A DNA stretch of 64,000 nucleotides from NCBI RefSeq assembly GCF_000019965.1, contig NC_010571.1, positions 5,527,001 through 5,591,000 of the forward strand, given 5' to 3'. Origin of the DNA: Opitutus terrae PB90-1 (GTDB lineage Bacteria > Verrucomicrobiota > Verrucomicrobiia > Opitutales > Opitutaceae). The notes beneath the pieces were generated by a model, which was given only the letters and a program-made list of their open reading frames with translations, searched no databases and had not been told where the DNA came from. Both the position numbers and the translations under genes were made by a program. Every line of letters starts with the position of its first letter. Position 1 is the stretch's first letter. This document shows, piece after piece, positions 3,657-52,282 of this stretch.

Positions 3657-4988
3657 AGTGACATAAATCCGCTTACACTTTTTCGCACCAAGCCGGGTTC
3701 GTTTGTCTTGAAGAGGAAGCCATGAGGCTTGGGGAGGGTTGAGGGAGGGGCGCAGCCCCTCCCTCACCTGAACCTACGAACGGGGACGAGGCCGGATCTG
3801 GTTAGCCGCGGGTCGATCGTGCCCAGCAGGAGGGAATCGAAGTGTACGCGGTAAAGCTGCCGGTAAGGGGTGAACGCCACGGTCAGGCCAACGAAGGCCC
3901 GACCGATGTGGCGATGGCTGCCGTCCAGCTTCACGTAGCCGTGAGGCCTGACCCGGCGAGTGACGCAGCCGAGCGGGTACTGTGGCGGCACGAGTCGGGG
4001 CAGCAGCCGGGTGCTCGGGCGGTAGAGGCTGGCCGGAGTGCGTCCGGCCAAACCCTCATGCGGACGGTCGTGGTTGTACCGGCCGCACCAGCGCTGCAGG
4101 CGTCGGACTTGCGCGCCGTAGGAGCGGGACACGGGCGTGGCGGCCTCGGCCTTGAGCATGCGGTGCATCTGCTCGTGAGCGTTGTTGTCGAGGCGGCGTT
4201 TGCGGCTGACAAACTGCACTTCGATGCCCAGCCGCTGCCACCATAGGCTCAGCGCGGTCAGGCCATACGGCCCGCTGCCGCAAAACGGCGTGCCGCGGTC
4301 AACCCGAATCGCCTGCGGCACGCCGAAGCGGCGGAACAGCCGCGCGAACACGCGGCGGACCACCGGCTCGCTCTGCCGGGGCACGGGATGGGCCGTAAGC
4401 ATGAAGCGGCTGTACAGATCGCGCACCGTTAAAGCCAAGATCCACGCTCCGTCTTTGGTGTAAAAGTCTCCCTTGAAGTCCGCGGTCCAGACCGCGTTCA
4501 CTCGCTCGGCGAGCACGGTGGCGGGCCGCCCCGGTCCGGCTCTAAGCTTGCGACGTCGCTGGTGCACGCGACCGGCGGCTACCAGCCACCGGTGGAGCGT
4601 CCGGCTACACGGCACTCGCTCGCCGGGATGCGTCCGCTCGAGCCACCACCGCAACTTGGGCGCACCCCAACTGGGCCGCGCCTGACGCGCGAGCAACACG
4701 CGCGCGTGCCACCGCGCCAACGCCTGGCTCACCTGTTTGGGGCGGCCCGGTTGTCGCGCAACCAGCCCGTTTACCCCCTGAGCCACATACCTCGCCGCCC
4801 ACTTGTAAGCGGTCGTGCGGCTCACGCCAAACCGCGCGCACAACGCGGTCACCGACACCGTGCCTCGCGTCATCTCCCGAGCGAGAGCCTGACGCTGCTG
4901 CTCCGCCGTTTTGATCTTCCAGGGCATCGCACCCCAGAAAAAGTGTCAGCGGATTTATGGCACTAAGTGTAAACGAATATGTGGCACT
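3657..4988 (-). mobile_element. IS481-family insertion sequence, copy 1
   Basis: About 1.33 kb carrying one transposase gene on the minus strand. The left end (AGTGACATAAATCCGCTTAC, from 3657) matches in inverted orientation the segment 4937-4964 with only two mismatches over 28 bp. A second, more diverged copy of the terminal repeat follows at 4965-4988. The segment is repeated at 41568-42899 with no difference seen. Identity between copies runs slightly further, 3652 to 4993, so exact ends are uncertain, and no target duplication could be identified. The left flank is a dispersed palindromic repeat (3628-3650). Confidence 0.88.
3764..4927 (-). CDS. IS481-family transposase (DDE integrase type)
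   Basis: A 387-residue transposase. The N-terminus is a helix-turn-helix (SVTALCARFGVSRTTAYKWA, about residues 24-43), followed by a second DNA-binding region and an rve-type catalytic core. The acidic residues of the core are seen in WTADFKGDF, IRVDRGTPFCG and NNAHEQMHRMLKAE, giving a plausible DDE triad. A GRTPASLYRPS block near the C-terminus is also typical. The frame is intact, so the element may still be active. It is the only gene of the element, and its start at 4927 lies inside the right inverted-repeat end region. An identical protein is encoded at 41675-42838. Confidence 0.93.
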   Translation of the reverse strand: MPWKIKTAEQQRQALAREMTRGTVSVTALCARFGVSRTTAYKWAARYVAQGVNGLVARQPGRPKQVSQALARWHARVLLARQARPSWGAPKLRWWLERTHPGERVPCSRTLHRWLVAAGRVHQRRRKLRAGPGRPATVLAERVNAVWTADFKGDFYTKDGAWILALTVRDLYSRFMLTAHPVPRQSEPVVRRVFARLFRRFGVPQAIRVDRGTPFCGSGPYGLTALSLWWQRLGIEVQFVSRKRRLDNNAHEQMHRMLKAEAATPVSRSYGAQVRRLQRWCGRYNHDRPHEGLAGRTPASLYRPSTRLLPRLVPPQYPLGCVTRRVRPHGYVKLDGSHRHIGRAFVGLTVAFTPYRQLYRVHFDSLLLGTIDPRLTRSGLVPVRRFR

Positions 4989-5205: not shown

Positions 5206-6921
5206 ATGAACCGTTTCTCCCGCTCTCTCTTCGTTCTCGCCTTGCTCGCTTCCGTTTTCACCGCGGTTGGCTCGGCCAAGCCCGACGCGATCGTCGCCCC
5301 CGACGGCTCCGGCCAGTTCACCTCGCTGCAGGACGCGATCAGCGCGGCGCCGATGCGCACTGACCCGGCCGCACCGGCGTGGGTGATTCTGGTCAAGCCC
5401 GGCACCTATCGCGAGCGCATCTACGTGCAGCGCGAGCGCGGCAACATCCACGTGCTCGGCGAGGACGCGACGACGACGATCGTGAGCTACGATCTGCACG
5501 CCAATCTCCCCGGCCCCGACGGCAAGCCGATCGGCACGTTCCGGACGCCAACGCTCCAGATCGACGGCGATGGCATGATTTGGGAAAACATCACCATCGC
5601 GAACTCCGCCGGGCCGGTCGGTCAGGCGCTCGCGCTCCGCGCGGACGGCGATCGACTGGTGTTTCGCCACTGCCGTTTCCTCGGCTGGCAGGACACGCTC
5701 TTGCTCAACCGCGGCCGGCATTATTTCGTCGACTGCACCATCGAAGGCCACGTCGATTTCATTTTCGGCGCGGCCACCGCGTTCTTCGATCACTGCGCCA
5801 TTCGCTGCCTCCGCGACGGCTATATCACCGCCGCGTCGACGCCGAAGGGCGCCGCGCACGGCTTTGTCTTTGCGGACTGCACCATCACCGGCGCTGAAGG
5901 GGTGAAGACCTACCTGGGCCGGCCGTGGCGTGATTTTGCCCAAACCGTTTTTCTCCGGACCGAGATGTCGGCCGCGGTCCGCCCGGAGGGCTGGCACAAC
6001 TGGAACAAGCCCCACGCGGAACAAACCACATTCTATGCCGAGTTCGGCAGCACCGGTCCGGGCGCAAATCCGTCGGCTCGCGTGGCCTGGGCGCACACAC
6101 TCACCGCCGAGGATGCGGCTGATCTGACGCCGGCGCACGTGCTCGGTGGCGCCGATGGCTGGGATCCGGTTGCCGGAGCGGAACGCGCGAGCGTTTCACG
6201 CGAAAGTCCTACGACGTCTGCTACGACGACGGATGCTGCCCCTCCGCCGCGTCGGCCCGGGATCACGCGCATCGTTCTTGTCGGCGATTCCACGGTGACG
6301 GATCGCTCCGGCTGGGGCCGCGGGTTCAAGCAGTTGCTCGGGCCCGGCGCCGAATGCATCAACACCGCGCTCGGCGGCCGCAGCTCGAAAAGTTTCCGCG
6401 GCGAAGGCCATTGGGAACCCGCGCTCGCGCTGCGCGGCGACTACTACCTCATTCAATTCGGTCACAACGACCAGCCGGGCAAGGGCCCGAAGCGCGAGAC
6501 CGATCCGGATACGACGTTCGCGCAGAACCTCGCCCGCTATGTTGACGAAGTTCGCGCGATTGGCGCCGAGCCGGTGCTGTTGACTTCGCTCACGCGTCGC
6601 AACTTCGATCCGGCGAATCCGGGTCGCATCCTCTCGACGCTCACGCCCTACGCCAACGCCGCGAAACGAGTCGCCCGCGAGAAGGCCGTGCCGTTGATCG
6701 ACCTGCACGCGCGCAGCATCGCGTTGTGCGAAGCCTGGGGACCGGAACGAACCGCCGCGCTGAATCCCCGCAAACCCAACAGCCAGGATCCCGACACCAC
6801 TCATTTGGACGCGAATGGCAGCACAATCTTCGCGCAGCTCGTGGTCGATGACCTGCGGCAAGCCGTGCCGGCGCTCGCCTTCATTCTCCAAACCGCGCCG
6901 CAGCCCGGAAATCGGCCTTGA
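5206..6921 (+). CDS. Pectin methylesterase (CE8) fused to rhamnogalacturonan acetylesterase (CE12)
   Basis: A 571-residue secreted esterase pair. The ATG at 5206 begins a clear signal peptide (MNRFSRSLFVLALLASVFTA) and is preferred over upstream in-frame starts. Residues about 25-325 form a CE8 beta-helix with GWQDTLL (D163), DFIFG (D184) and YLGRPWR (R239), the catalytic set of pectinesterases, which release methanol from pectin. Residues about 353-571 are an SGNH hydrolase of the CE12 type, with GDSTV (S362), FGHNDQPGKG and DTTHLD. CE12 enzymes deacetylate rhamnogalacturonan. The linker (6176-6255) contains a dispersed repeat sequence (GCGGAACGCGCGAGCGTTTC) also found near 10376. It lies just downstream of an IS copy, which may have separated it from the upstream pectin genes. 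Confidence 0.93.
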   Translation: MNRFSRSLFVLALLASVFTAVGSAKPDAIVAPDGSGQFTSLQDAISAAPMRTDPAAPAWVILVKPGTYRERIYVQRERGNIHVLGEDATTTIVSYDLHANLPGPDGKPIGTFRTPTLQIDGDGMIWENITIANSAGPVGQALALRADGDRLVFRHCRFLGWQDTLLLNRGRHYFVDCTIEGHVDFIFGAATAFFDHCAIRCLRDGYITAASTPKGAAHGFVFADCTITGAEGVKTYLGRPWRDFAQTVFLRTEMSAAVRPEGWHNWNKPHAEQTTFYAEFGSTGPGANPSARVAWAHTLTAEDAADLTPAHVLGGADGWDPVAGAERASVSRESPTTSATTTDAAPPPRRPGITRIVLVGDSTVTDRSGWGRGFKQLLGPGAECINTALGGRSSKSFRGEGHWEPALALRGDYYLIQFGHNDQPGKGPKRETDPDTTFAQNLARYVDEVRAIGAEPVLLTSLTRRNFDPANPGRILSTLTPYANAAKRVAREKAVPLIDLHARSIALCEAWGPERTAALNPRKPNSQDPDTTHLDANGSTIFAQLVVDDLRQAVPALAFILQTAPQPGNRP

Positions 6922-6940
6922 CGGTGCGCCGGCCGTTGCC

Positions 6941-6963
6941 GTTACTACGAGCATCGTAGTAAC
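6941..6963. promoter_or_regulatory. Palindromic operator directly before the MarR gene
   Basis: A perfect 10-bp inverted repeat, GTTACTACGA at 6941-6950 and TCGTAGTAAC at 6954-6963, separated by 3 bp. It ends 3 bp before the ATG of the MarR-family gene. MarR proteins typically bind such sites as dimers and repress their own genes, so autoregulation is likely. The half-site TTACTACGA reappears with one change (TTATTACGA) at 7421-7429, upstream of the adjacent methyltransferase. Confidence 0.75.
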
Positions 6964-6966
6964 TCG

Positions 6967-7407
6967 ATGCCTGCCGACCTCGACACCGCGGCCAACCACG
7001 CGCTTCACGCCTTCGTGAAGGCGCTCAAACTGCTCGACCTGAGCGAGTGGTCGGCCCAGCTCGCCGGCATCGGCATGCTCGATCTCGGCATCCTGCACCA
7101 CGCCGCCCGCGACCCAAATGCCATCTTGGCCGACATTCGGCAGGCGTTGGGTGTACCAAACAGCACGCTCACCAGCGCCATCGACCGGCTCGAGCGAAAA
7201 GGGCTGTTGCGCCGCACGATCAATCCGCGCGACAAGCGCTCGTACGGACTCGCCCTGACCGACGCCGGCCGGGCGCTTGACAAGGAACACATGCGCGTGG
7301 ACCGCGCCATTACCCGCGCCGTCCTCGCCGCGCTCGATTCCGACCCGGAGCGGCGAACGCTGGTCGGACTGCTCGAGAAAGTCAGCCGGCAGATGGCCCG
7401 CCGCTGA
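6967..7407 (+). CDS. MarR-family transcriptional regulator
   Basis: A 146-residue winged-helix protein. The segment DIRQALGVPNSTLTSAIDRL (about residues 57-76) is the helix-turn-helix, followed by the wing with the family signature NPRDKRSYGLALTDAG. N- and C-terminal helices form the dimer interface. MarR proteins usually repress nearby genes and are released by small ligands or oxidants. A perfect palindrome ends 3 bp before the ATG and a similar half-site precedes the methyltransferase that begins 30 bp after its stop. The probable targets are therefore its own gene and the methyltransferase. The ligand is unknown. Confidence 0.9.
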   Translation: MPADLDTAANHALHAFVKALKLLDLSEWSAQLAGIGMLDLGILHHAARDPNAILADIRQALGVPNSTLTSAIDRLERKGLLRRTINPRDKRSYGLALTDAGRALDKEHMRVDRAITRAVLAALDSDPERRTLVGLLEKVSRQMARR

Positions 7408-7416
7408 TTTTTTCCG

Positions 7417-7435
7417 CGATTTATTACGATAATCG
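7417..7435. promoter_or_regulatory. Second candidate MarR site before the methyltransferase
   Basis: CGATT at 7417-7421 pairs with AATCG at 7431-7435 around TTATTACGATAA. The segment TTATTACGA matches the half-site TTACTACGA of the 6941-6963 palindrome at 8 of 9 positions. It ends 2 bp before the first possible start of the methyltransferase gene, the same relative position as the MarR site. Confidence 0.5.
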
Positions 7436-7437
7436 GA

Positions 7438-8148
7438 ATGTACGTCCTTCGCATGAACTCACCCATGACTGCACCCTCTTCGCCCGCCGCCGCCTCCGCG
7501 GACCTCATTCCTGCCCGGGCCTTTCGCGCCCGCGCCTCGCATCCGGCCTTCCGGGCCTTCGCCGCGCCCACCGGCTGGCTCGGCCGGCTGGCCGGGTGGA
7601 TCATGACTCGAAAGAACCTCCCGCTGAACCGGCTGGCCGTGCAGACGATGGAGGCGCGCGCCGGCGAGCACGTCCTCGAAATCGGTTTTGGCCCCGGCTG
7701 TGCGCTCGCGCTGCTCAGCGCCGCCGTCGGCCCCGACGGATTGGTTGCGGGCGTGGATCGCTCGCCGGAAATGCTCGCTGCCGCCACCCGCCGGAACCGC
7801 CCCGCCGTTCACGGCGGTCGGATGCGGCTGACCACCGGCACCGCGGACCAACTGGCTTGGCCTGAAGCGTCGTTCGATCGTGTGCTGTCCGTCAGCAACG
7901 TCCAATTCTGGCAGCCGGCCACCCGGTCGTTGGCCGAGATCCTCCGGGTGCTTAAGCCGCGCGGACGACTGGTCATCGCCGTGCATACGCTGCGCGAGGG
8001 GCAACGTCGACTGACGCCCGGGTTGTTCGCCGATGAGCTCGTGGCGGTGAAGCGGTGGATTGAACGGAACGGGTTCGTGCTCACCGGCGAGGTTGTCCTC
8101 GATCAGGGGATCACCGGCCTTTGTCTGGTTGCCCAACGTCCAGCTTGA
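7438..8148 (+). CDS. SAM-dependent class I methyltransferase
   Basis: A protein of 236 residues (231 if it starts at the ATG at 7453). The SAM-binding motif I is HVLEIGFGPGCALALL, followed by an acidic motif II (AGVDRSPEML) and a post-motif AWPEASFDRVLSVSNVQFW typical of Methyltransf_11 enzymes acting on small molecules or lipids. The hydrophobic N-terminal region (LGRLAGWIMTRKNLPLNRLAVQTM) resembles ubiquinone/menaquinone-type and phospholipid methyltransferases, but the substrate cannot be read. It lies directly downstream of the MarR gene with a shared half-operator, so it is likely the regulated output of that regulator. The metal-hydrolase gene follows 9 bp after its stop. Confidence 0.85.
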   Translation: MYVLRMNSPMTAPSSPAAASADLIPARAFRARASHPAFRAFAAPTGWLGRLAGWIMTRKNLPLNRLAVQTMEARAGEHVLEIGFGPGCALALLSAAVGPDGLVAGVDRSPEMLAAATRRNRPAVHGGRMRLTTGTADQLAWPEASFDRVLSVSNVQFWQPATRSLAEILRVLKPRGRLVIAVHTLREGQRRLTPGLFADELVAVKRWIERNGFVLTGEVVLDQGITGLCLVAQRPA

Positions 8149-8157
8149 TCATTGCCC

Positions 8158-9192
8158 ATGACCACTCACAGCCGGGCGCTCCTGATCGCGTTGCTGCCAT
8201 TCGCCGCCTTGACTGGTACATCCTGCGCCGTCCATCAGGGCCCGCGCTCGGATCATTTCGATGGTACACGGTTTACCACCGGCGAACCCACGGCAACGCT
8301 GGCTGACCATGCGAGATGGCTCTGGGAAATGGAGCCGGTCGCCTGGCCGGACTGGATCGTGGACCCACCGCAGCCACCACCGATCGCACGCACCGCACCG
8401 GGCGAGCTGCGCTTCACCTACATCAATCATGCCACCATCCTGATTCAAATCGACGGGATCAACATTCTCACCGATCCGATCTGGTCGCGCCGCGCCGGCC
8501 CGTGGGGGCTGCTCGGCGCCTCTCGCGTGCGCGCCCCTGGTCTCGCCTTCGATCAGCTGCCGCCCATCGATGTCGTGCTGATCAGCCACGATCACTACGA
8601 CCACCTCGACCGTCCGACGCTGCGTCGGCTCGTTGCGCGCCACCGCCCCGTGATTATTACCGGGCTCGGCGTCGGCGCGCGACTCGCGGATACTGCGCCG
8701 GGCGCCGTGGTCGAACTCGACTGGTGGCAGCAACACGCCCTGGCCAACGGCGGACCCGAAATCGTTTTCCTGCCCACTCGGCACGATTCCGGCCGCGGCT
8801 GGTTCGATGGCAACTGCACGCTGTGGGGTGGATTCGCCCTGAAATCGTCTCGCGGTTGGGTGCTTTTTATGGGCGACACCGGCTGGAGCCGGCACTTTCC
8901 GGCCATCGCCACGCGCTTTGCGCCCGTGCGGCTGGCCATCCTGCCGATCGGCAGCTACGAGAAGCGCTGGTTCATGCAGGATCGGCACTTGAACCCCGAT
9001 GACGCGGTGCGGGCGCACCTGCTGTTCCGCGCCGCGCAGAGCGTGGGCATACACTTCGGCACATTCTGCGAACATCCCGAGCAGGCGGTCGACGCCCACG
9101 AAACCGATCTCGCGCAGGCGCTGGATCGGCGGGGTGTGGCCCGCGACCGGTTCTGGGTGCCCGGCTTCGGCGAAGGACGCAGCATCCCTTGA
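8158..9192 (+). CDS. Metallo-beta-lactamase-fold hydrolase, probably exported
   Basis: A 344-residue protein of the UlaG / N-acyl-phosphatidylethanolamine phospholipase D-like branch of the metallo-beta-lactamase fold. The metal motif is SHDHYDHLD (H144, H146, D148, H149); further ligands are probably in TRHDSGRGWFD and FMGDTGWS. The N-terminus is a signal sequence ending in TGTSC, a possible but non-ideal lipobox, so the protein may be a lipoprotein. ATG at 8158 is chosen over TTG at 8152. The gene starts 9 bp after the methyltransferase stop, suggesting a MarR-methyltransferase-hydrolase operon. Members cleave phospholipid-like or cyclic ester bonds; the substrate here is unknown. Confidence 0.85.
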   Translation: MTTHSRALLIALLPFAALTGTSCAVHQGPRSDHFDGTRFTTGEPTATLADHARWLWEMEPVAWPDWIVDPPQPPPIARTAPGELRFTYINHATILIQIDGINILTDPIWSRRAGPWGLLGASRVRAPGLAFDQLPPIDVVLISHDHYDHLDRPTLRRLVARHRPVIITGLGVGARLADTAPGAVVELDWWQQHALANGGPEIVFLPTRHDSGRGWFDGNCTLWGGFALKSSRGWVLFMGDTGWSRHFPAIATRFAPVRLAILPIGSYEKRWFMQDRHLNPDDAVRAHLLFRAAQSVGIHFGTFCEHPEQAVDAHETDLAQALDRRGVARDRFWVPGFGEGRSIP

Positions 9193-14206: not shown

Positions 14207-14237
14207 TCACCTTCGGTTGGTCGATTGCGCAGGCGCA

Positions 14238-14271
14238 CGCCGCCGCCCGTCCGGGCGGCGGCGTTGTTTTT
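14238..14271 (+). terminator. Intrinsic terminator of receptor 1
   Basis: A 12-bp GC stem (14238-14249 with 14252-14263) followed by TTGTTTTT. The same CGCCGCCGCCC-type stem recurs after receptors 2 and 3, so these units were duplicated with their terminators. Confidence 0.9.
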
Positions 14272-18151: not shown

Positions 18152-18186
18152 CGCCGCCGCCCAACCTTGGGCGGCGGCGTTTTTTT
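18152..18186 (+). terminator. Intrinsic terminator of receptor 2
   Basis: A 12-13-bp stem (CGCCGCCGCCCAA at 18152-18164 with TTGGGCGGCGGCG at 18167-18179) followed by seven T residues. Confidence 0.92.
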
Positions 18187-21961: not shown

Positions 21962-21988
21962 GAGCCGTCGCTCGATCCTTCCAACTCA

Positions 21989-22021
21989 CGCCGCCGCCCG
22001 CCCGGGCGGCGGCGTTTTTTT
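21989..22021 (+). terminator. Intrinsic terminator of receptor 3
   Basis: A 12-bp perfect stem (CGCCGCCGCCCG at 21989-22000 with CGGGCGGCGGCG at 22003-22014) followed by seven T residues. Confidence 0.93.
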
Positions 22022-23853: not shown

Positions 23854-26001
23854 ATGTCCTCCCGCCCCGGCTCCTCGTCCCCCTCCACCCCCGCCGATCC
23901 GTTCGCGCTGCCGGCCCGTTGGCTGTATCCGCTGCTCTTCCTCGTGGCGCTGGCAGCCTATTGGCCCGCGCTCGGTGGCGGCGTGTTGTGGGACGACCTT
24001 GGTCACCTCACCCGCCAGGATCTGCGCTCGTTCGATGGACTCGGCCGCATTTGGTTCGAGATCGGCGCCACCCAGCAATACTATCCGCTGCTGCATTCGG
24101 CGTTCTGGCTGGAGCATCGGCTGTGGGGCGACGCGACGCTCGGCTATCATCTCACGAACGTCTTCCAGCACGCCCTCGTCGCCTGTTTGTTCGCCGCGTT
24201 GCTGCGCCGGCTGGCCGTCCCCGGCGCCGCGCTTGCCGCCCTGCTGTTTGCGCTCCATCCGGTGGGCGTCGAGTCCGTCGCGTGGATCTCGGAACAGAAG
24301 AACACCCTCTCCGCGATCTTCTATCTCGCCGCCGCGCTCGCGTATCTGCAGTGGCACGGGCGTCCCGCCCGTGAATCCATGTTGGGCGTGGCACGGGGGC
24401 CAGATCCGGCTCGATCCCCGACCGAAACGCCCGCGCCACCTCGTTCTGCGCCCCCGCTTGCGTGGGAGCGCGGCCGTCCCCGGCCGCTCTTCGGGTATTT
24501 CTTCGCCACCTTTCTTTTTCTCTGCGCTTTGCTGACGAAAACCGTCACCGCCACACTACCGGCGGCGCTGCTGGTGATCTTCTGGTGGCGCCGCGGCAAG
24601 CTCGGCTGGCGGCACGACGTGGTGCCGCTGCTTCCGTGGTTCGGCCTGAGCATTGCCGGCGGCGCGCTCACCGCACACTTCGAACGCACGCTCATCGGCG
24701 CGCAGGGCGCCGCGTTCGATCTTGGCTGGATTGAGCGTGGCCTGCTGGCCGGTCGCGTGGTGTGGTTCTACCTGGGCAAACTTCTCTGGCCAGCTGAGCT
24801 GAGTTTCATCTATCCGCGCTGGCACGTCGACGCCACCGCCTGGTGGCAATGGCTCTTCCCGCTCGCCACCCTCGCGGTATTGGCGGTGCTTTGGCGTATC
24901 GCCCACTCCGGCTCCCAACCCTCAACTCTCAACTCTCAACTCTCCGCCCCTGCCCTCCGTAGGCTTGGCGAAGGAGGGCGCCGCGCTCCGCTCGCCGCGG
25001 CACTCCTCTTCGGCGGCACGCTGTTTCCCGTCCTCGGTTTTTTCAACGTCTACCCGTTCGTCTTTTCCTACGTCGCCGACCACTTCCAATATCTCGCCGC
25101 GCTCGCCGTCTTCGCCTTGGTCGCCGCGGCGATCGCCCACGCTGCGGTGCGCTGGACTCGTCCCGCCGCCCTCTCCAGCGCGGGCGTGATCCTGCTGGTG
25201 CTCGGCGCGCTGACCTGGTCGCAGGCCGCCATCTATCGCGACGGGTTCAGGCTCTACCGCGACACCCTCGCGAAAAACCCCGATTGCTGGATGGCGCACA
25301 ACAACCTGGCGATGTTGCTCACCGAATCCGGCCGGCCCGCGGAAGCGATTCCGCATCTCGAGCAGGCGCTCCGGATCCGACCCGACTATCCGCAGGCGAT
25401 GAGCAATCTGGGCGACGATCTCATCCGGCTCGGCCGGTCGCGGGAAGCGATTCCGCACCTCGAGCGCGCGCTGGCGCTTCAGCCGGACTACGTCCAGGCG
25501 CACAACAACCTCGGCACGGCGCTGCTCACGCTCGATCGGGCGGCCGAGGCGATCGCGCATTTCGAACGCGCCGTGCAGCTCGACCCGCGCTACACCATGG
25601 CTCACTACAATCTCGGCCTCGCGCTGGCCCAGACGGATCGGGTGCGGGAGGCCATTCCTCACTTCGAGCGCGTCGTCACCCTGCAGCCCACTCATGCGCA
25701 CGCCGAGCTCAGCCTCGCCTACGCCCTCGCCTCCACTGATCGGTTCAGCGAATCCATTCGGCACTTCGAGCGCGCGCTCGAGCTCGAACCCGATTCCGTC
25801 GAAGCCCATCAGACCTACGCGCGGATGCTCGCCCGACACGGACAGCTCGACCAGGCGCTCCCGCATTTCCGCGCCGTCGTGGAGCTGATGCCACAGTCCG
25901 GCGCGGCGCATCGCGACTTGGGCTTTGCGCTCCGTCAGCTCGGCCGCAGCGACGAAGCCATGCCGCACTTTCTCGAAGCGCAGCGGCTCGGCGAACGATA
26001 G
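23854..26001 (+). CDS. Polytopic membrane protein with C-terminal TPR repeats (glycosyltransferase-C-like)
   Basis: A 715-residue protein. ATG 23854 is chosen because the hydrophobic part begins about 24 residues later. Residues about 25-475 contain roughly nine to eleven membrane segments, with an early [14 protein letters not shown] loop holding an acidic pair as in PMT/TMTC-type glycosyltransferases, and [20 protein letters not shown]. Residues about 475-715 are around seven tetratricopeptide repeats (for example [30 protein letters not shown]). The plan resembles bacterial proteins often labelled O-GlcNAc-transferase-like; enzymatic activity is not established. Two loops carry dispersed repeats in frame (24351-24489 and 24918-24979), so those loops are lineage-specific insertions. 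It is unrelated to pectin genes by sequence. Confidence 0.8.
24351..24373 (+). repeat. In-frame copy of the GTGGCACGGGCGTCCCGCCC palindrome
   Basis: The element starts at 24351 with GTGGCACGGG and ends CCGTG. It is read here as WHGRPARE within a loop of the TPR membrane protein; another coding copy at 32303 is read in a different frame. Confidence 0.75.
24456..24489 (+). repeat. In-frame copy of the GCGTGGGAGCGCGG element
   Basis: GCTTGCGTGGGAGCGCGGCC followed by GTCCCCGGCCGCTC forms a hairpin and is translated as [11 protein letters not shown] inside the TPR membrane protein. Confidence 0.75.
24918..24979 (+). repeat. Heptamer array CTCAACT plus TGCCCTCCGTAGGCTTGGCG palindrome, in frame
   Basis: Three CTCAACT units at about 24921-24941 are followed at 24951-24979 by a hairpin (GCCCTCC...GGAGGGC). 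Close relatives of both parts occur together at 49200-49305 in another gene. All are translated. Confidence 0.75.
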
Positions 26002-26079
26002 CGTCGCCGCACCGGGCGACTGCCCCCCCGCGTCAGCATCCACCGGCGGGCCTGTCCTCCGCTCTTGCGGCGTCCCGCT

Positions 26080-26149
26080 CGAATTCGATACTTGTGCTCT
26101 GGAATTCGGATTTGTTTCGGATTTCGAGCTTACGATTTCGGATTTCCCC
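26080..26149 (+). repeat. AT-rich GGATTTCG minisatellite abutting a start codon
   Basis: Degenerate repeats of GGAATTCGGATTT / GATTTCGGATTTC run right up to the ATG at 26150. Base composition differs sharply from the surroundings. No Shine-Dalgarno sequence is present. Confidence 0.6.
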
Positions 26150-29100
26150 ATGTCTCCCCTCTCACGGCTGTTCATCTTTCTCACCCTCGCCGGTCTCAGT
26201 TCCCTCTCCGCGGACGTGGTTCAGCGCGACCTCGTCTACGGCGAAGCTGGCGGCGAACGGCTGCTCCTCGACGCGCACGTGCCCGACGGCGCGGGACCAT
26301 TCCCGATCGCGATCCTCGTCCACGGCGGCGGCTGGAGCGGCGGCGACAAGTCTGGCAGCGATAAACCGGGCAACGGCGCCGACATCACCCCGTGGTTCGC
26401 TCCGCTCACCGCGGCCAACTACACGTGGTTCTCCATCAATTACCGGCTCGCGCCGAAACACCGCTGGCCAGCGTGTTTCGACGACGTGCAGACCGCGATC
26501 CGCTGGGCCAAGGCGCACGCCGCCGAATTCAAGGGCGATCCCAAGCGCATCGCGCTCTTCGGCCACTCCGCCGGCGGCCACCTCGTCGCGCTCGCCGGCG
26601 TGCTCGCCAACGACGACACGCGCATTCAGGCCGTCGTCGGCTACGCGCCGGTCACCGACTTCGAGTCCGAACTTCCGCGCCGCGGCGGACTCAGCACTTC
26701 CCTGCAAGCACTGCACAACCGCGACGCCGTGGTCACTCCTGAAGCGCTGCAGCTGCTCCGCGACACTGCGCCGCTCAATCACATCAAACCCGGTCTTCCG
26801 CCGTTCCTCATTCTGCACGGCGATGCTGACAAGACCGTCTTCTACAGCCAGTCGCTCGAGTTTCAGAAACGGATGCGCGCGGCCGGCAACACCTGCGATC
26901 TCATCACCCTCCCCGGCGCCCCACACGGTTTGCTGAAGTGGTCCGAGTTCGCGCCCGACTACACCGATCGGATGATCGCCTGGCTCGACGGCACCCTCGG
27001 CCGCAGCGCGTCGTCCAATTCCACTGCACCCGACGCCAACAGCCATTTTCACGTAATACGTGAAATTAGCTCCCCCGCGCCGGCGGCGCCCGCGGCCTCG
27101 GCAGCGGTCCCCCGCGAAACCGACCAACGACATTTTCACGTAATACGTGAAAATGGCTCGGCCCCGGAGGAAGCCGCGACAGCGGCGCTCAAGCTCTGGT
27201 ACCGCCAACCCGCCGCCCAGTGGGTCGAGGCGCTGCCCGTCGGCAACGGCCGGCTCGGCGCGATGGTGTTCGGCGGCATTCAGCAGGAGCGGCTGCAGCT
27301 CAACGAAGACACGCTCTGGGCCGGTGGACCCTACGATCCGGCCAGTCCCGAGGCGCGCGCCGCACTGCCGGAGATTCGCCGGCTGATTTCCGCCGGCAAC
27401 TACGCTGCAGCGCAGCAACTCACGCAGGGAAAATTCATGGGGCGGCCGATCGTGCAGATGCCGTATCAGACGGTCGGTGACCTCATGATCACCCAGGCCG
27501 GCAGCGAACAGGTGGCGAACTACCGCCGGGAACTCGACCTCGACACCGCCATCGCCCGCACGGAGTACGTGCTCGGCGGCGTGACGTTTGTTCGGGAGGT
27601 GTTCGCCAGCCCGGTCGACCAGGTAATCGTGATCCGGCTCACCGCATCGCGGAACCCGCCGCGGCCGGAATGGGGCGGTCCATTGAGTTTCACGCTGGCC
27701 TTCCAAAGTCCGCAGCGCGCCACGGCCGCCGCCGACGGCGCCGAGCTGGTCCTGTCCGGCTCCAACAGCGACGCCGCCGGCATCAAAGGCCGGCTGAAGT
27801 TCGAGGCCCGCGCCCGGCTGATCGTCGAAGGCGGCGCCGTCGTCGCCGACGGCACCGATCTGCAGGTGCAGGGCGCGCATGCAGCCACCATCCTGCTGGC
27901 CGCGGCGACAAGCTATCGCCGCTACGACGACGTCAGCGGCGATCCCGCCGCGCTGAATCGCGCCACGCTCGCTGCGGTCGCGACCAAACCTTATGAAGCG
28001 ATCCGCGCCGCCCACGTCGCCGAGCACCAGCGGCTCTTCCGCCGCGTCTCGCTCGATCTCGGCACCAGTTACGCCGCGCAACTGCCCACCGACGAACGCG
28101 TCCGCCTCTCCACCACCAGCGTCGATCCCGCGCTCGCCGCGCTTTATTTCCAGTACGCGCGTTACCTGCTGATCTCCTCGTCCCGACCGGGCAGCCAGCC
28201 GGCAAACCTGCAGGGCCTCTGGAACGATCATGTCACCCCGCCGTGGGGTTCGAAGTACACGATCAACATCAACACCGAGATGAACTACTGGCCGGCCGAG
28301 GTCGCCAACCTCGCCGAATGCACCGAGCCGGTGTTCAGCATGATTCGCGATCTCACCGAAACCGGCACGAAGATGGCGCAGGCTCAGTATGGCGCGCGCG
28401 GCTGGGTGGTGCATCACAACACCGATCTCTGGCGCGCCGCCGCGCCGATCGACGGCGCTTTTTGGGGCATGTGGCCGACCGGCGGGGCCTGGCTCTGCCG
28501 CACCGCGTGGGAACATTACCTCTACAGCGGCGACCGCGAGTTCCTCGCCCGGATCTACCCCTGGCTGAAAGGCGCGGCCGAATTCTTCCTCGACACGCTG
28601 GTCGAAGAACCGCGCCACCGCTGGCTCGTCACGAGTCCCTCGATCTCGCCGGAAAACGCGCACCACCCGGGCGTCACGATCAGCGCCGGACCCACGATGG
28701 ACGAACAGATCATCCGCGACCTGTTCTCCGAGGTGATCACCGCCAGCGAACAGCTCGGCGTGGATGCGGACTTCCGCCAAAAGGTCGCGGCGGCCCGCGC
28801 CCGGCTCGCGCCGAACCAGATCGGCGCGCAGGGCCAGCTGCAGGAATGGGTCGAGGACTGGGACGCGATCGCGCCCGAGCAAGACCACCGGCACGTCTCG
28901 CATCTCTACGGGCTGTTCCCCAGCGATCAGATCGATCCGCGCACCACGCCTGAGCTGGCCGCCGCCGCAAAGAAAACGCTCGAAACCCGGGGCGACATTT
29001 CCACCGGCTGGGCCATCGCCTGGCGGCTCAATCTCTGGACGCGGCTCGCCGACGCCGAGCGCGCCTACAAGATCCTGCGCGCGCTGCTGGCGCCCGAGCG

Positions 29101-29434
29101 CACCTATCCGAACCTGTTCGACGCGCATCCGCCCTTCCAGATCGACGGCAACTTCGGTGGCGCAAACGGCATCGCCGAGATGCTGCTGCAATCGCACCGC
29201 GGCGAGATCGAGTTGCTGCCCGCGTTGCCCAAGGCGTGGCCGACGGGTTCCGTCAAGGGCCTGCGCGCGCGTGGCGGATTCGAAGTCGACCTCGCCTGGG
29301 CCAACCAGCAGCTCGTGAGGGTCGAGCTCCGGTCCGCGTCCGGCGGCACGGCGCGCGTGCGCTGCGGCTCGCACACCGCCGAGGTCACCGTGCCCGCGGG
29401 CGGACGGATTCAACTCGGCGCAGAGCTGCGCTAG
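26150..29434 (+). CDS. Esterase / GH95 fusion (alpha-L-fucosidase or alpha-L-galactosidase type)
   Basis: A 1094-residue secreted two-domain enzyme starting at ATG 26150 with a signal peptide of about 21 residues. Residues about 22-290 are an alpha/beta hydrolase of the CE10/BD-FAE type, with the oxyanion motif HGGGW, nucleophile elbow GHSAGG (S140), and a late HGDADKTV and HGLL for the Asp and His. Residues about 345-1094 are GH95, with the [13 protein letters not shown] block (N706, N708) and FQIDGNFGG (D999), matching the catalytic Asn/Asp set of the family. GH95 removes alpha-1,2-fucose or L-galactose, for example from xyloglucan or rhamnogalacturonan side chains; the esterase likely deacetylates the same glycan. 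The linker contains two perfect TTTCACGTAATACGTGAAA palindromes in frame. Confidence 0.92.
27047..27065. repeat. Perfect 19-bp palindrome TTTCACGTAATACGTGAAA, linker copy 1
   Basis: A perfect odd-centred palindrome translated as FHVIRE within the esterase-GH95 linker. The same motif occurs at 27132-27154 and, with a C centre, at 38045-38063. Confidence 0.85.
27132..27154. repeat. Palindrome copy 2, extended to 23 bp
   Basis: The same palindrome with arms extended by AT on the left and AT on the right (23 bp perfect). It is translated as FHVIREN. It lies 85 bp from copy 1, with an alanine/proline-rich segment between. Confidence 0.85.
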
Positions 29435-37823: not shown

Positions 37824-38130
37824 CGCCCCGGCCCTCCCTGCTGTTTTCGGAGCTCGCCCACCCTCGCTCCCATGCGCCGTCTGCATTCGCGTCGCCCGCC
37901 CTCCATGGTGAGAGCGCCGCTCGCTGCGCCCTTGCCGATTCCCTCTCGCGCGATCGCCTGGCCGCTCGCGTGCGTCACCGTCTTCTCGCTCCTCTGCGGC
38001 GCTGCCCTCCGTCCGCCGCACCTGTCGCAGCCGCCCCGGGCGATTTTCACGTACTACGTGAAACCAGCCCGGCCTCAACCCGCGCACCACGCCCGAGCTC
38101 GCAACGGGCGCCCGCCGAGCCTTGAACCGA
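37824..38130. other. Intergenic region before the second MFS gene
   Basis: An 89-codon plus-strand frame (37872-38141) with one hydrophobic stretch is present but has arginine/proline-rich shadow-like composition, so it is not called. The region contains the third TTTCACGTACTACGTGAAA palindrome. Confidence 0.5.
38045..38063. repeat. Perfect 19-bp palindrome TTTCACGTACTACGTGAAA
   Basis: The same arms as the two palindromes in the esterase-GH95 linker, with C instead of A at the centre. It is intergenic here, 68 bp upstream of the box A of the MFS gene. Confidence 0.8.
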
Positions 38131-41567: not shown

Positions 41568-42899
41568 AGTGACATAAATCCGCTTACACTTTTTCGCACC
41601 AAGCCGGGTTCGTTTGTCTTGAAGAGGAAGCCATGAGGCTTGGGGAGGGTTGAGGGAGGGGCGCAGCCCCTCCCTCACCTGAACCTACGAACGGGGACGA
41701 GGCCGGATCTGGTTAGCCGCGGGTCGATCGTGCCCAGCAGGAGGGAATCGAAGTGTACGCGGTAAAGCTGCCGGTAAGGGGTGAACGCCACGGTCAGGCC
41801 AACGAAGGCCCGACCGATGTGGCGATGGCTGCCGTCCAGCTTCACGTAGCCGTGAGGCCTGACCCGGCGAGTGACGCAGCCGAGCGGGTACTGTGGCGGC
41901 ACGAGTCGGGGCAGCAGCCGGGTGCTCGGGCGGTAGAGGCTGGCCGGAGTGCGTCCGGCCAAACCCTCATGCGGACGGTCGTGGTTGTACCGGCCGCACC
42001 AGCGCTGCAGGCGTCGGACTTGCGCGCCGTAGGAGCGGGACACGGGCGTGGCGGCCTCGGCCTTGAGCATGCGGTGCATCTGCTCGTGAGCGTTGTTGTC
42101 GAGGCGGCGTTTGCGGCTGACAAACTGCACTTCGATGCCCAGCCGCTGCCACCATAGGCTCAGCGCGGTCAGGCCATACGGCCCGCTGCCGCAAAACGGC
42201 GTGCCGCGGTCAACCCGAATCGCCTGCGGCACGCCGAAGCGGCGGAACAGCCGCGCGAACACGCGGCGGACCACCGGCTCGCTCTGCCGGGGCACGGGAT
42301 GGGCCGTAAGCATGAAGCGGCTGTACAGATCGCGCACCGTTAAAGCCAAGATCCACGCTCCGTCTTTGGTGTAAAAGTCTCCCTTGAAGTCCGCGGTCCA
42401 GACCGCGTTCACTCGCTCGGCGAGCACGGTGGCGGGCCGCCCCGGTCCGGCTCTAAGCTTGCGACGTCGCTGGTGCACGCGACCGGCGGCTACCAGCCAC
42501 CGGTGGAGCGTCCGGCTACACGGCACTCGCTCGCCGGGATGCGTCCGCTCGAGCCACCACCGCAACTTGGGCGCACCCCAACTGGGCCGCGCCTGACGCG
42601 CGAGCAACACGCGCGCGTGCCACCGCGCCAACGCCTGGCTCACCTGTTTGGGGCGGCCCGGTTGTCGCGCAACCAGCCCGTTTACCCCCTGAGCCACATA
42701 CCTCGCCGCCCACTTGTAAGCGGTCGTGCGGCTCACGCCAAACCGCGCGCACAACGCGGTCACCGACACCGTGCCTCGCGTCATCTCCCGAGCGAGAGCC
42801 TGACGCTGCTGCTCCGCCGTTTTGATCTTCCAGGGCATCGCACCCCAGAAAAAGTGTCAGCGGATTTATGGCACTAAGTGTAAACGAATATGTGGCACT
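41568..42899 (-). mobile_element. IS481-family insertion sequence, copy 2
   Basis: Matches copy 1 (3657-4988) with no difference seen and lies in the same orientation 37.9 kb away. Its right end lies 118 bp before box A of the SDR operon. Confidence 0.88.
41675..42838 (-). CDS. IS481-family transposase, copy 2
   Basis: A 387-residue transposase identical to the one at 3764-4927: N-terminal helix-turn-helix, integrase-like core with acidic residues in WTADFKGDF, IRVDRGTPFCG and NNAHEQMHRMLK. Both copies are intact, so transposition was recent or gene conversion keeps them alike. The neighbouring GH43 gene ends 136 bp left of the element. Confidence 0.93.
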   Translation of the reverse strand: MPWKIKTAEQQRQALAREMTRGTVSVTALCARFGVSRTTAYKWAARYVAQGVNGLVARQPGRPKQVSQALARWHARVLLARQARPSWGAPKLRWWLERTHPGERVPCSRTLHRWLVAAGRVHQRRRKLRAGPGRPATVLAERVNAVWTADFKGDFYTKDGAWILALTVRDLYSRFMLTAHPVPRQSEPVVRRVFARLFRRFGVPQAIRVDRGTPFCGSGPYGLTALSLWWQRLGIEVQFVSRKRRLDNNAHEQMHRMLKAEAATPVSRSYGAQVRRLQRWCGRYNHDRPHEGLAGRTPASLYRPSTRLLPRLVPPQYPLGCVTRRVRPHGYVKLDGSHRHIGRAFVGLTVAFTPYRQLYRVHFDSLLLGTIDPRLTRSGLVPVRRFR

Positions 42900-51848: not shown

Positions 51849-51895
51849 CCGCCCGTGCCACTTGAACCCCCGCCGCGCTTCACTACGGTACTCGT

Positions 51896-52282
51896 ATGAG
51901 TGTGCGCATCGTCCGCCTCGGCACCCCTCGGCAGCCCGACGAGGGCCTTCGCATCGGCACCGTTCGTCGTCCTCCACGTGGCGTCCCCAAGGAGCAATTC
52001 GCGAAACAAAATTGGTACGACGTCTGGTTCCCCAATCTCGCGCCGAGCCTCCCAGTGATGAAGTCCGCGCTGAAAGCGACCACGCCGGCGCAGTGGGCGG
52101 CCTTCGTCCGCAGCTACAAGTCCGAGATGGCCCAGCCCGCCGCCCGCCACGACGTCGCCCTCCTGGCCGCGCTCTCGCGGCACACCAACTTCTCGGTTGG
52201 CTGCTACTGCGAGCGCGAAGAGCACTGCCACCGCTCGGTACTGCGGCAGCTGCTCCTCGAAGCGGGGGCGAAGGTCGAATAG
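51896..52282 (+). CDS. DUF488-family protein
   Basis: A 128-residue protein of the DUF488 family (YeaO-like). It shows the family segments GTVRRPPRGVPKEQFAKQNWYDVWFP and the C-terminal CYCEREEHCHRSVL with cysteine/histidine residues. Function in the family is unknown. It ends 8 bp before the next GNAT gene, so the two are probably co-transcribed. Confidence 0.88.
   Translation: MSVRIVRLGTPRQPDEGLRIGTVRRPPRGVPKEQFAKQNWYDVWFPNLAPSLPVMKSALKATTPAQWAAFVRSYKSEMAQPAARHDVALLAALSRHTNFSVGCYCEREEHCHRSVLRQLLLEAGAKVE

Follow-up and report, generated by a model that had tools for sequence, protein, structure and literature searches.

The gene for a MarR-family regulator in Opitutus terrae PB90-1 starts directly behind a perfect inverted repeat, and a related sequence lies in the short gap before the next gene. 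The locus therefore raises the question of whether the regulator controls both genes through these sites, and how close to the start codons such control would act. We analysed a window of 64,000 nucleotides, bases 5,527,001-5,591,000 of the single-contig genome of 5,957,605 bp, and all positions below are counted from the first base of the window unless the genome is named.

The regulator gene, called marR here (6967..7407, + strand), encodes a 146-aa winged-helix protein matching Pfam MarR (4.3e-11) and MarR_2 (6.3e-11). The start of marR is sound, because no in-frame ATG, GTG or TTG exists upstream of the ATG at 6967 and the annotated start of a Sphingomonas homologue aligns with residue 1. 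The ORF of a class I SAM-dependent methyltransferase (7438..8148, +; Pfam Methyltransf_11, 1.5e-17) begins 30 bp after the marR stop, with alternative in-frame starts at ATG 7453 and ATG 7465. Only 3 bp past the methyltransferase stop follows the gene of a metallo-beta-lactamase-fold hydrolase (8152..9192, +; Pfam Lactamase_B_2, 1.5e-37; start TTG 8152 or ATG 8158), which is probably carried on the same transcript. On the other side of marR, a pectinesterase gene of the same strand ends at 6921, 45 bp before marR. The window also contains two IS481-like transposase ORFs (3764-4927 and 41675-42838, both on the - strand) with identical Pfam scores and identical 20 bases upstream. Both show the same 27-bp hairpin sequence with 12-bp arms across the stop-codon end, at 3740-3766 and 41651-41677.

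An earlier note on this DNA had described a perfect palindrome, GTTACTACGA-N3-TCGTAGTAAC, ending 3 bp before the marR ATG, and this was confirmed exactly. The 23-bp palindrome GTTACTACGA-GCA-TCGTAGTAAC (site 1, 6941..6963) is followed by TCG and then by the ATG at 6967. Palindromy alone is not rare here, since the window holds further perfect palindromes of about this length or longer, mostly G+C-rich. Shuffling of the 60 bp upstream of marR with dinucleotides preserved gave a perfect 10-bp arm with a loop of 0-8 in 2 of 3000 cases. The core of site 1, TTACTACGA-N3-TCGTAGTAA, was found at a single place in the 5.96-Mb genome with up to 3 mismatches allowed. With up to 1 mismatch it occurred in one of 252 family genomes, that of Opitutus terrae itself, as compared with 3 of 252 for a backwards control pattern. 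A palindromic site of MarR size was thus found at the regulator's own start, as looked for in a negatively autoregulated MarR gene, and site 1 is the putative primary MarR operator.

The hexamer TTGACG at 6918-6923 (+) agrees with the -35 hexamer at 5 of 6 positions and overlaps the stop of the upstream gene. It is a possible -35 element of marR, and a 17-bp spacer would set the -10 element within site 1. The consensus scan did not call this hexamer as a promoter and found no sigma-70-type promoter in 6850-7500, a result that is weak evidence either way because shuffled sequences averaged 0.1.

Other repeats were observed in the window. The palindrome TTTCACGTA[A/C]TACGTGAAA has three copies, at 27047-27065, 27134-27152 and 38045-38063. 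Two copies fall within the ORF at 25925-29434, in the region that separates its esterase-like part from its GH95 part, and the third is upstream of an MFS transporter ORF. This palindrome is possibly a sugar-regulon operator, or possibly a sign that the 25925-29434 ORF represents two genes. Three similar 28-bp inverted repeats, with 13-bp arms rich in CGCCGCC and a 2-bp loop, were located at 14237-14264, 18152-18179 and 21988-22015. The first and the last of these stand about 30 bp past the stops of large ORFs and are terminator-like, and that at 18152-18179 is at a called ORF start.

A matching half-site had also been claimed at the gene next to marR. The sequence TTATTACGA at 7421-7429 does match the half-site at 8 of 9 positions, a likeness that 125 of 10,000 sequences equalled when the 30-bp gap was shuffled. 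It is better read as the left half of a degenerate full operator, TTATTACGA-TAA-TCGGAATGT (site 2, 7421..7441, +), which agrees with site 1 at 13 of 18 positions and extends into the ATG at 7438. In its right half, TCG is found at the correct spacing and the match is poor past TCG. When the 40 bp around it were shuffled with dinucleotides preserved, 33 of 10,000 sequences reached a score of 13/18, as did 18 of 10,000 mononucleotide shuffles; all site 2 tests were post hoc, run once site 2 was known. No operator-like site was found before the hydrolase gene (best score 8/18). The CGATT/AATCG arms reported for this gap are present at 7417-7435, ending 2 bp before ATG 7438. The centre of this dyad is 5 bp away from the operator register, and 5-bp arms with a loop of up to 9 arose in 1138 of 5000 shuffles, so the dyad was rejected as a chance feature.

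Could the repeat act as RNA instead? A 10-bp hairpin immediately before the marR AUG would then block translation of messages reading through from the pectinesterase gene, which lies upstream on the same strand. The site 1 hairpin alone folds with -12.5 kcal/mol (z -3.53). However, such folding is a property of any perfect palindrome, and RNA from the site 2 region is no more stably folded than its shuffles (z 0.62) despite the likeness of site 2 to site 1. We consider a role as RNA extremely improbable.

The 15-base pattern TTAYTACGANNNTCG (TTAYTACGA-N3-TCG) was built from sites 1 and 2. Three exact matches occur in the genome, two at site 1 (one on each strand) and one at site 2. Allowing up to 1 mismatch raised the number to 16, against 9 for a backwards control pattern. 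All 13 one-mismatch places lie within ORFs of either strand, the 13th in an apparent ABC-ATPase gene. Two of these in-ORF places reach a full-operator score of 14/18 and thereby exceed site 2, so that 13/18 is unremarkable genome-wide and the remarkable part of site 2 is its position.

The same data bear on a reading with site 1 as the sole operator. Transcripts from the marR promoter would then extend through the methyltransferase gene, and the likeness of site 2, an AT-rich gap and perhaps a -10 region, to site 1 would be due to chance. A gap of 30 bp leads one to expect one operon, and shuffles do reach both the half-site likeness and the full register at the frequencies given above, in after-the-fact tests. 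On the other hand, the absence of any other exact genome match to the 15-base pattern speaks for a relation between the two sites. We regard a single operator as unlikely.

A scan of the window disclosed one more candidate, which was tested afterwards. Site 3, TCACTACGG-TAC-TCGTATGAG (51880..51900, +), agrees with site 1 at 13 of 18 positions and overlaps the ATG at 51896 of a gene for a 128-aa DUF488-N3a protein (51896..52282, +; Pfam PF22751, 1.1e-45), the candidate third gene of the regulon. The start of this gene is secured by orthologs of 67-75% identity that align from residue 1. Sites 1, 2 and 3 share the pattern TYAYTACGRNNNTCGKA, whose four exact genome matches are site 1 on both strands, site 2 and site 3; because the pattern was derived from these sites, part of this uniqueness is there by construction. 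Allowing up to 1 mismatch gave 14 matches, as against 6 for the backwards control. Nine of the ten one-mismatch places were examined and all nine lie in ORFs, the tenth being left out as it overlaps another. Two one-mismatch places that seemed intergenic by the filter are actually inside ORFs.

By a rough hand estimate, 0.2 to 0.5 start-proximal sites scoring 13/18 are expected by chance genome-wide, and site 3 therefore remains a candidate. No counterpart of site 3 was found before the three closest DUF488 orthologs (67-75% identity; scores 7, 7 and 8), which come from genomes with no MarR match at E <= 1e-12. Five more distant relatives gave operator scores of 7 to 9 at extrapolated starts. 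Such absence in orthologs would be expected of a recently gained target and of a chance match alike. That site 3 is a genuine third target, with the DUF488 gene 45 kb away, seems to us possible but somewhat doubtful.

Start-proximal scores were surveyed in 60 spread stretches of 20 kb together with the window, 1.264 Mb in all. Simple codon-model gene calls yielded 874 genes with 685 distinct ATG starts; these calls are crude, and the window was added deliberately. An operator score of at least 13 between -32 and +6 was found at 3 of the 685 starts, those of marR (18), the methyltransferase at 7438 (13) and DUF488 at 51896 (13), and the best score at surveyed starts outside the window was 12. 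Over the whole 1.264-Mb sample one place scored 18 and three scored 13, one of the latter lying away from surveyed starts. Candidate operators on or against start codons, as they appear at these genes, are unusual.

The earlier note had further stated that both sites abut start codons, and had drawn from this very short or leaderless transcripts. The first statement is correct for site 1, which is 3 bp off. Site 2 in the operator register overlaps ATG 7438, itself a doubtful start. A reference set was made of the 275 surveyed starts that stand more than 45 nt from any other start codon; those of marR and the methyltransferase were excluded. Shine-Dalgarno-like motifs preceded 27 of the 275 starts, as compared with 26 and 31 in two control stretches, and the Opitutus terrae genome shows no Shine-Dalgarno signal. 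Some other Verrucomicrobia have been listed as Shine-Dalgarno-scarce (PMC10783764). As the genome is without this signal, a missing motif is no evidence on leader length, and arguments from missing motifs to leader length fail in this organism. C occupies position -1 in 68% of the 275 starts. The missing signal and the strong preference for C at -1 are results at the level of the organism and reach farther than the locus.

The context of ATG 7438 is poor by this standard, with 8 of 275 reference starts scoring as low. ATG 7453 is ordinary (109/275) and ATG 7465 is typical, 255 of 275 starts scoring equal or lower. The true methyltransferase start may be 7453 or 7465, and site 2 would then be wholly upstream. 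ATG 7438 may still be the start, since the secure starts of marR and DUF488 rank low as well (33/275 and 40/275). Low ranks would be natural wherever an operator crowds the start codon.

Boxes of the form TANNNT were counted before 182 genes with at least 80 bp of upstream space, with the expectation taken from far background. At gaps of 5-19 nt, 23 were seen against about 10 expected, and at gaps of 30-39 nt, 15 against about 7; at gaps of 5-19 nt the mirror motif gave 24 against about 17 and the complement motif 13 against about 16. TANNNT is mildly enriched at 5-19 and 30-39 nt before the ATG. Site 2 contains a putative -10-like box of this form, TACGAT (7425..7430, +), 7 nt before ATG 7438, and a TANNNT box also occurs 6 nt before the DUF488 ATG at 51896. 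If used, the TACGAT box would yield a leaderless message or a very short leader. Short leaders may exist in Opitutus terrae, and nothing fixes them at the marR locus; the very short or leaderless transcripts are not established. Literature searching gave nothing relevant on leaderless transcripts of Opitutus terrae, as judged by title or abstract start.

The regulator itself belongs to the MarR family by domain scores above the curated cut-offs (PF01047, 43 bits vs 24.6; PF12802, 42.7 bits vs 27). An alignment of 9 sequences has 9 columns without variation, and these include P87, R91, L97, T98 and G101, residues of the wing and following it that are shared with other MarR proteins. The protein scored below the cut-off of each of the 14 NCBIfam families listed for named MarR regulators (BilQ, FabT, SlyA, OhrR and others), the best being BilQ with 41.9 bits vs 125. 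A single-sequence structure model was unusable, with a mean pLDDT of 45.7.

At E <= 1e-12 the protein was found in no family genome of 252 other than its own. Weaker matches at E <= 1e-8 were present in 56 of 150 family genomes, the best at 1.9e-12. In its own phylum 3 of 387 genomes, its own included, gave matches at E <= 1e-10, and in the phylum of a Kordiimonas genome 4 of 398 did so at E <= 1e-11, the best at 2.9e-15 over residues 54-144. The genome contigs collection returned one match of 43 residues; no match was confirmed in viral contigs and none was found in phages. Plasmids gave 45 records, all below 60% identity. The methyltransferase showed partial matches in family genomes (41 of 150) and on plasmids (149 records), and such matches are widespread at roughly 28-45% identity. 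No orthologous marR-methyltransferase pair was seen among the loci returned. The upstream regions of the distant MarR loci that were scanned scored at most 12/18 for the marR operator, and some bear other palindromes. Another MarR of Opitutus terrae (4942811-4943089 of the genome) has a palindrome of its own upstream, GTTAGCCGGCTAAC, and resembles a MarR group common in the family.

A match to the regulator (E <= 1e-12) and the palindrome (<=1 mismatch) thus co-occur in the same single genome of 252. It is unusual that neither was found in the other 251 family genomes. The partnership of MarR with the sites is suggested by adjacency, and the sites might instead be operators of another regulator. 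The palindrome stands in the Opitutus terrae genome solely at the marR start, and the regulator and palindrome share their restriction to this genome, although that amounts to one positive genome. These observations make another regulator very improbable, and MarR itself remains the preferred binder.

Autoregulation with a related site at the next gene, as the earlier note proposed, is supported by the sequence because the palindrome is genome-unique and stands at the regulator's own start, and because the second TTAYTACGANNNTCG match is found nowhere else. It is probable that an autorepressed MarR controls its own gene and the downstream methyltransferase gene through sites 1 and 2. A MarR dimer would bind the 23-bp palindrome of site 1, where its own gene starts, and with lower affinity the degenerate site 2 between marR and the methyltransferase gene, in the gap of 30 bp. 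The bound protein would repress its own transcription, and would hinder initiation by RNA polymerase at the methyltransferase gene or its passage into this gene and probably the hydrolase gene. A small ligand may release MarR, as suggested by its family. What was observed directly is the sites themselves, where they lie, how rare they are, how their sequences are related, and to which family the protein belongs; we infer this MarR as the binder, repression as the sign of control, the arrangement of two affinities and the inducer.

A wider scheme would make this a three-promoter regulon of a lineage-specific MarR, comprising marR itself, the methyltransferase gene and the DUF488 gene 45 kb away. 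In this scheme the -10 element would lie within the operators, which would also reach over the start codons, and the messages would be leaderless or nearly so, in an organism that lacks a Shine-Dalgarno signal. The site at the DUF488 gene would have been gained in the sole sampled genome with the regulator. We consider this full scheme distinctly unlikely. An uncharacterised MarR thereby gains a precise, testable candidate operator, and the analysis also assigns it a small candidate regulon.

A literature search on the operator letters returned no MarR operator among the titles listed, and one linking DUF488 with MarR gave nothing relevant by title or abstract start. The top plasmid match is a MarR of Sphingomonas sp. 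R1 plasmid pR1a, with 34.9% identity over residues 1-139, and its gene is likewise upstream of same-direction genes. It differs in its neighbours, an aldehyde dehydrogenase and a p-hydroxycinnamoyl-CoA hydratase/lyase, and its 150 bp upstream hold no good operator match (best 9/18). For SCO3205 of Streptomyces coelicolor, operators were sought in its own upstream region, such factors tending to autoregulate, and the dimer inserts its recognition helices into successive major grooves of a symmetric 22-mer (PMC3737563). Its operator, with prominent TT/AA, and its genes are different, and it has a solved protein-DNA complex. MarR-type regulators are described as binding palindromes of 16-20 bp that often overlap the -10 and -35 elements (PMC5401885). 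In the same source, CrtR of Corynebacterium glutamicum represses its own gene together with an adjacent operon, its regulon is very small, and the crtR transcript is reported to be leaderless. The crtR gene is transcribed divergently from the target operon, with perhaps a single binding site, and the regulator responds to isoprenoid pyrophosphates (PMC5401885). In Opitutus terrae, marR lies upstream of its putative target on the same strand, and the two candidate sites are arranged in tandem; no orthology is claimed. Overall, the arrangement looks like an ordinary self-limiting repressor of a known kind.
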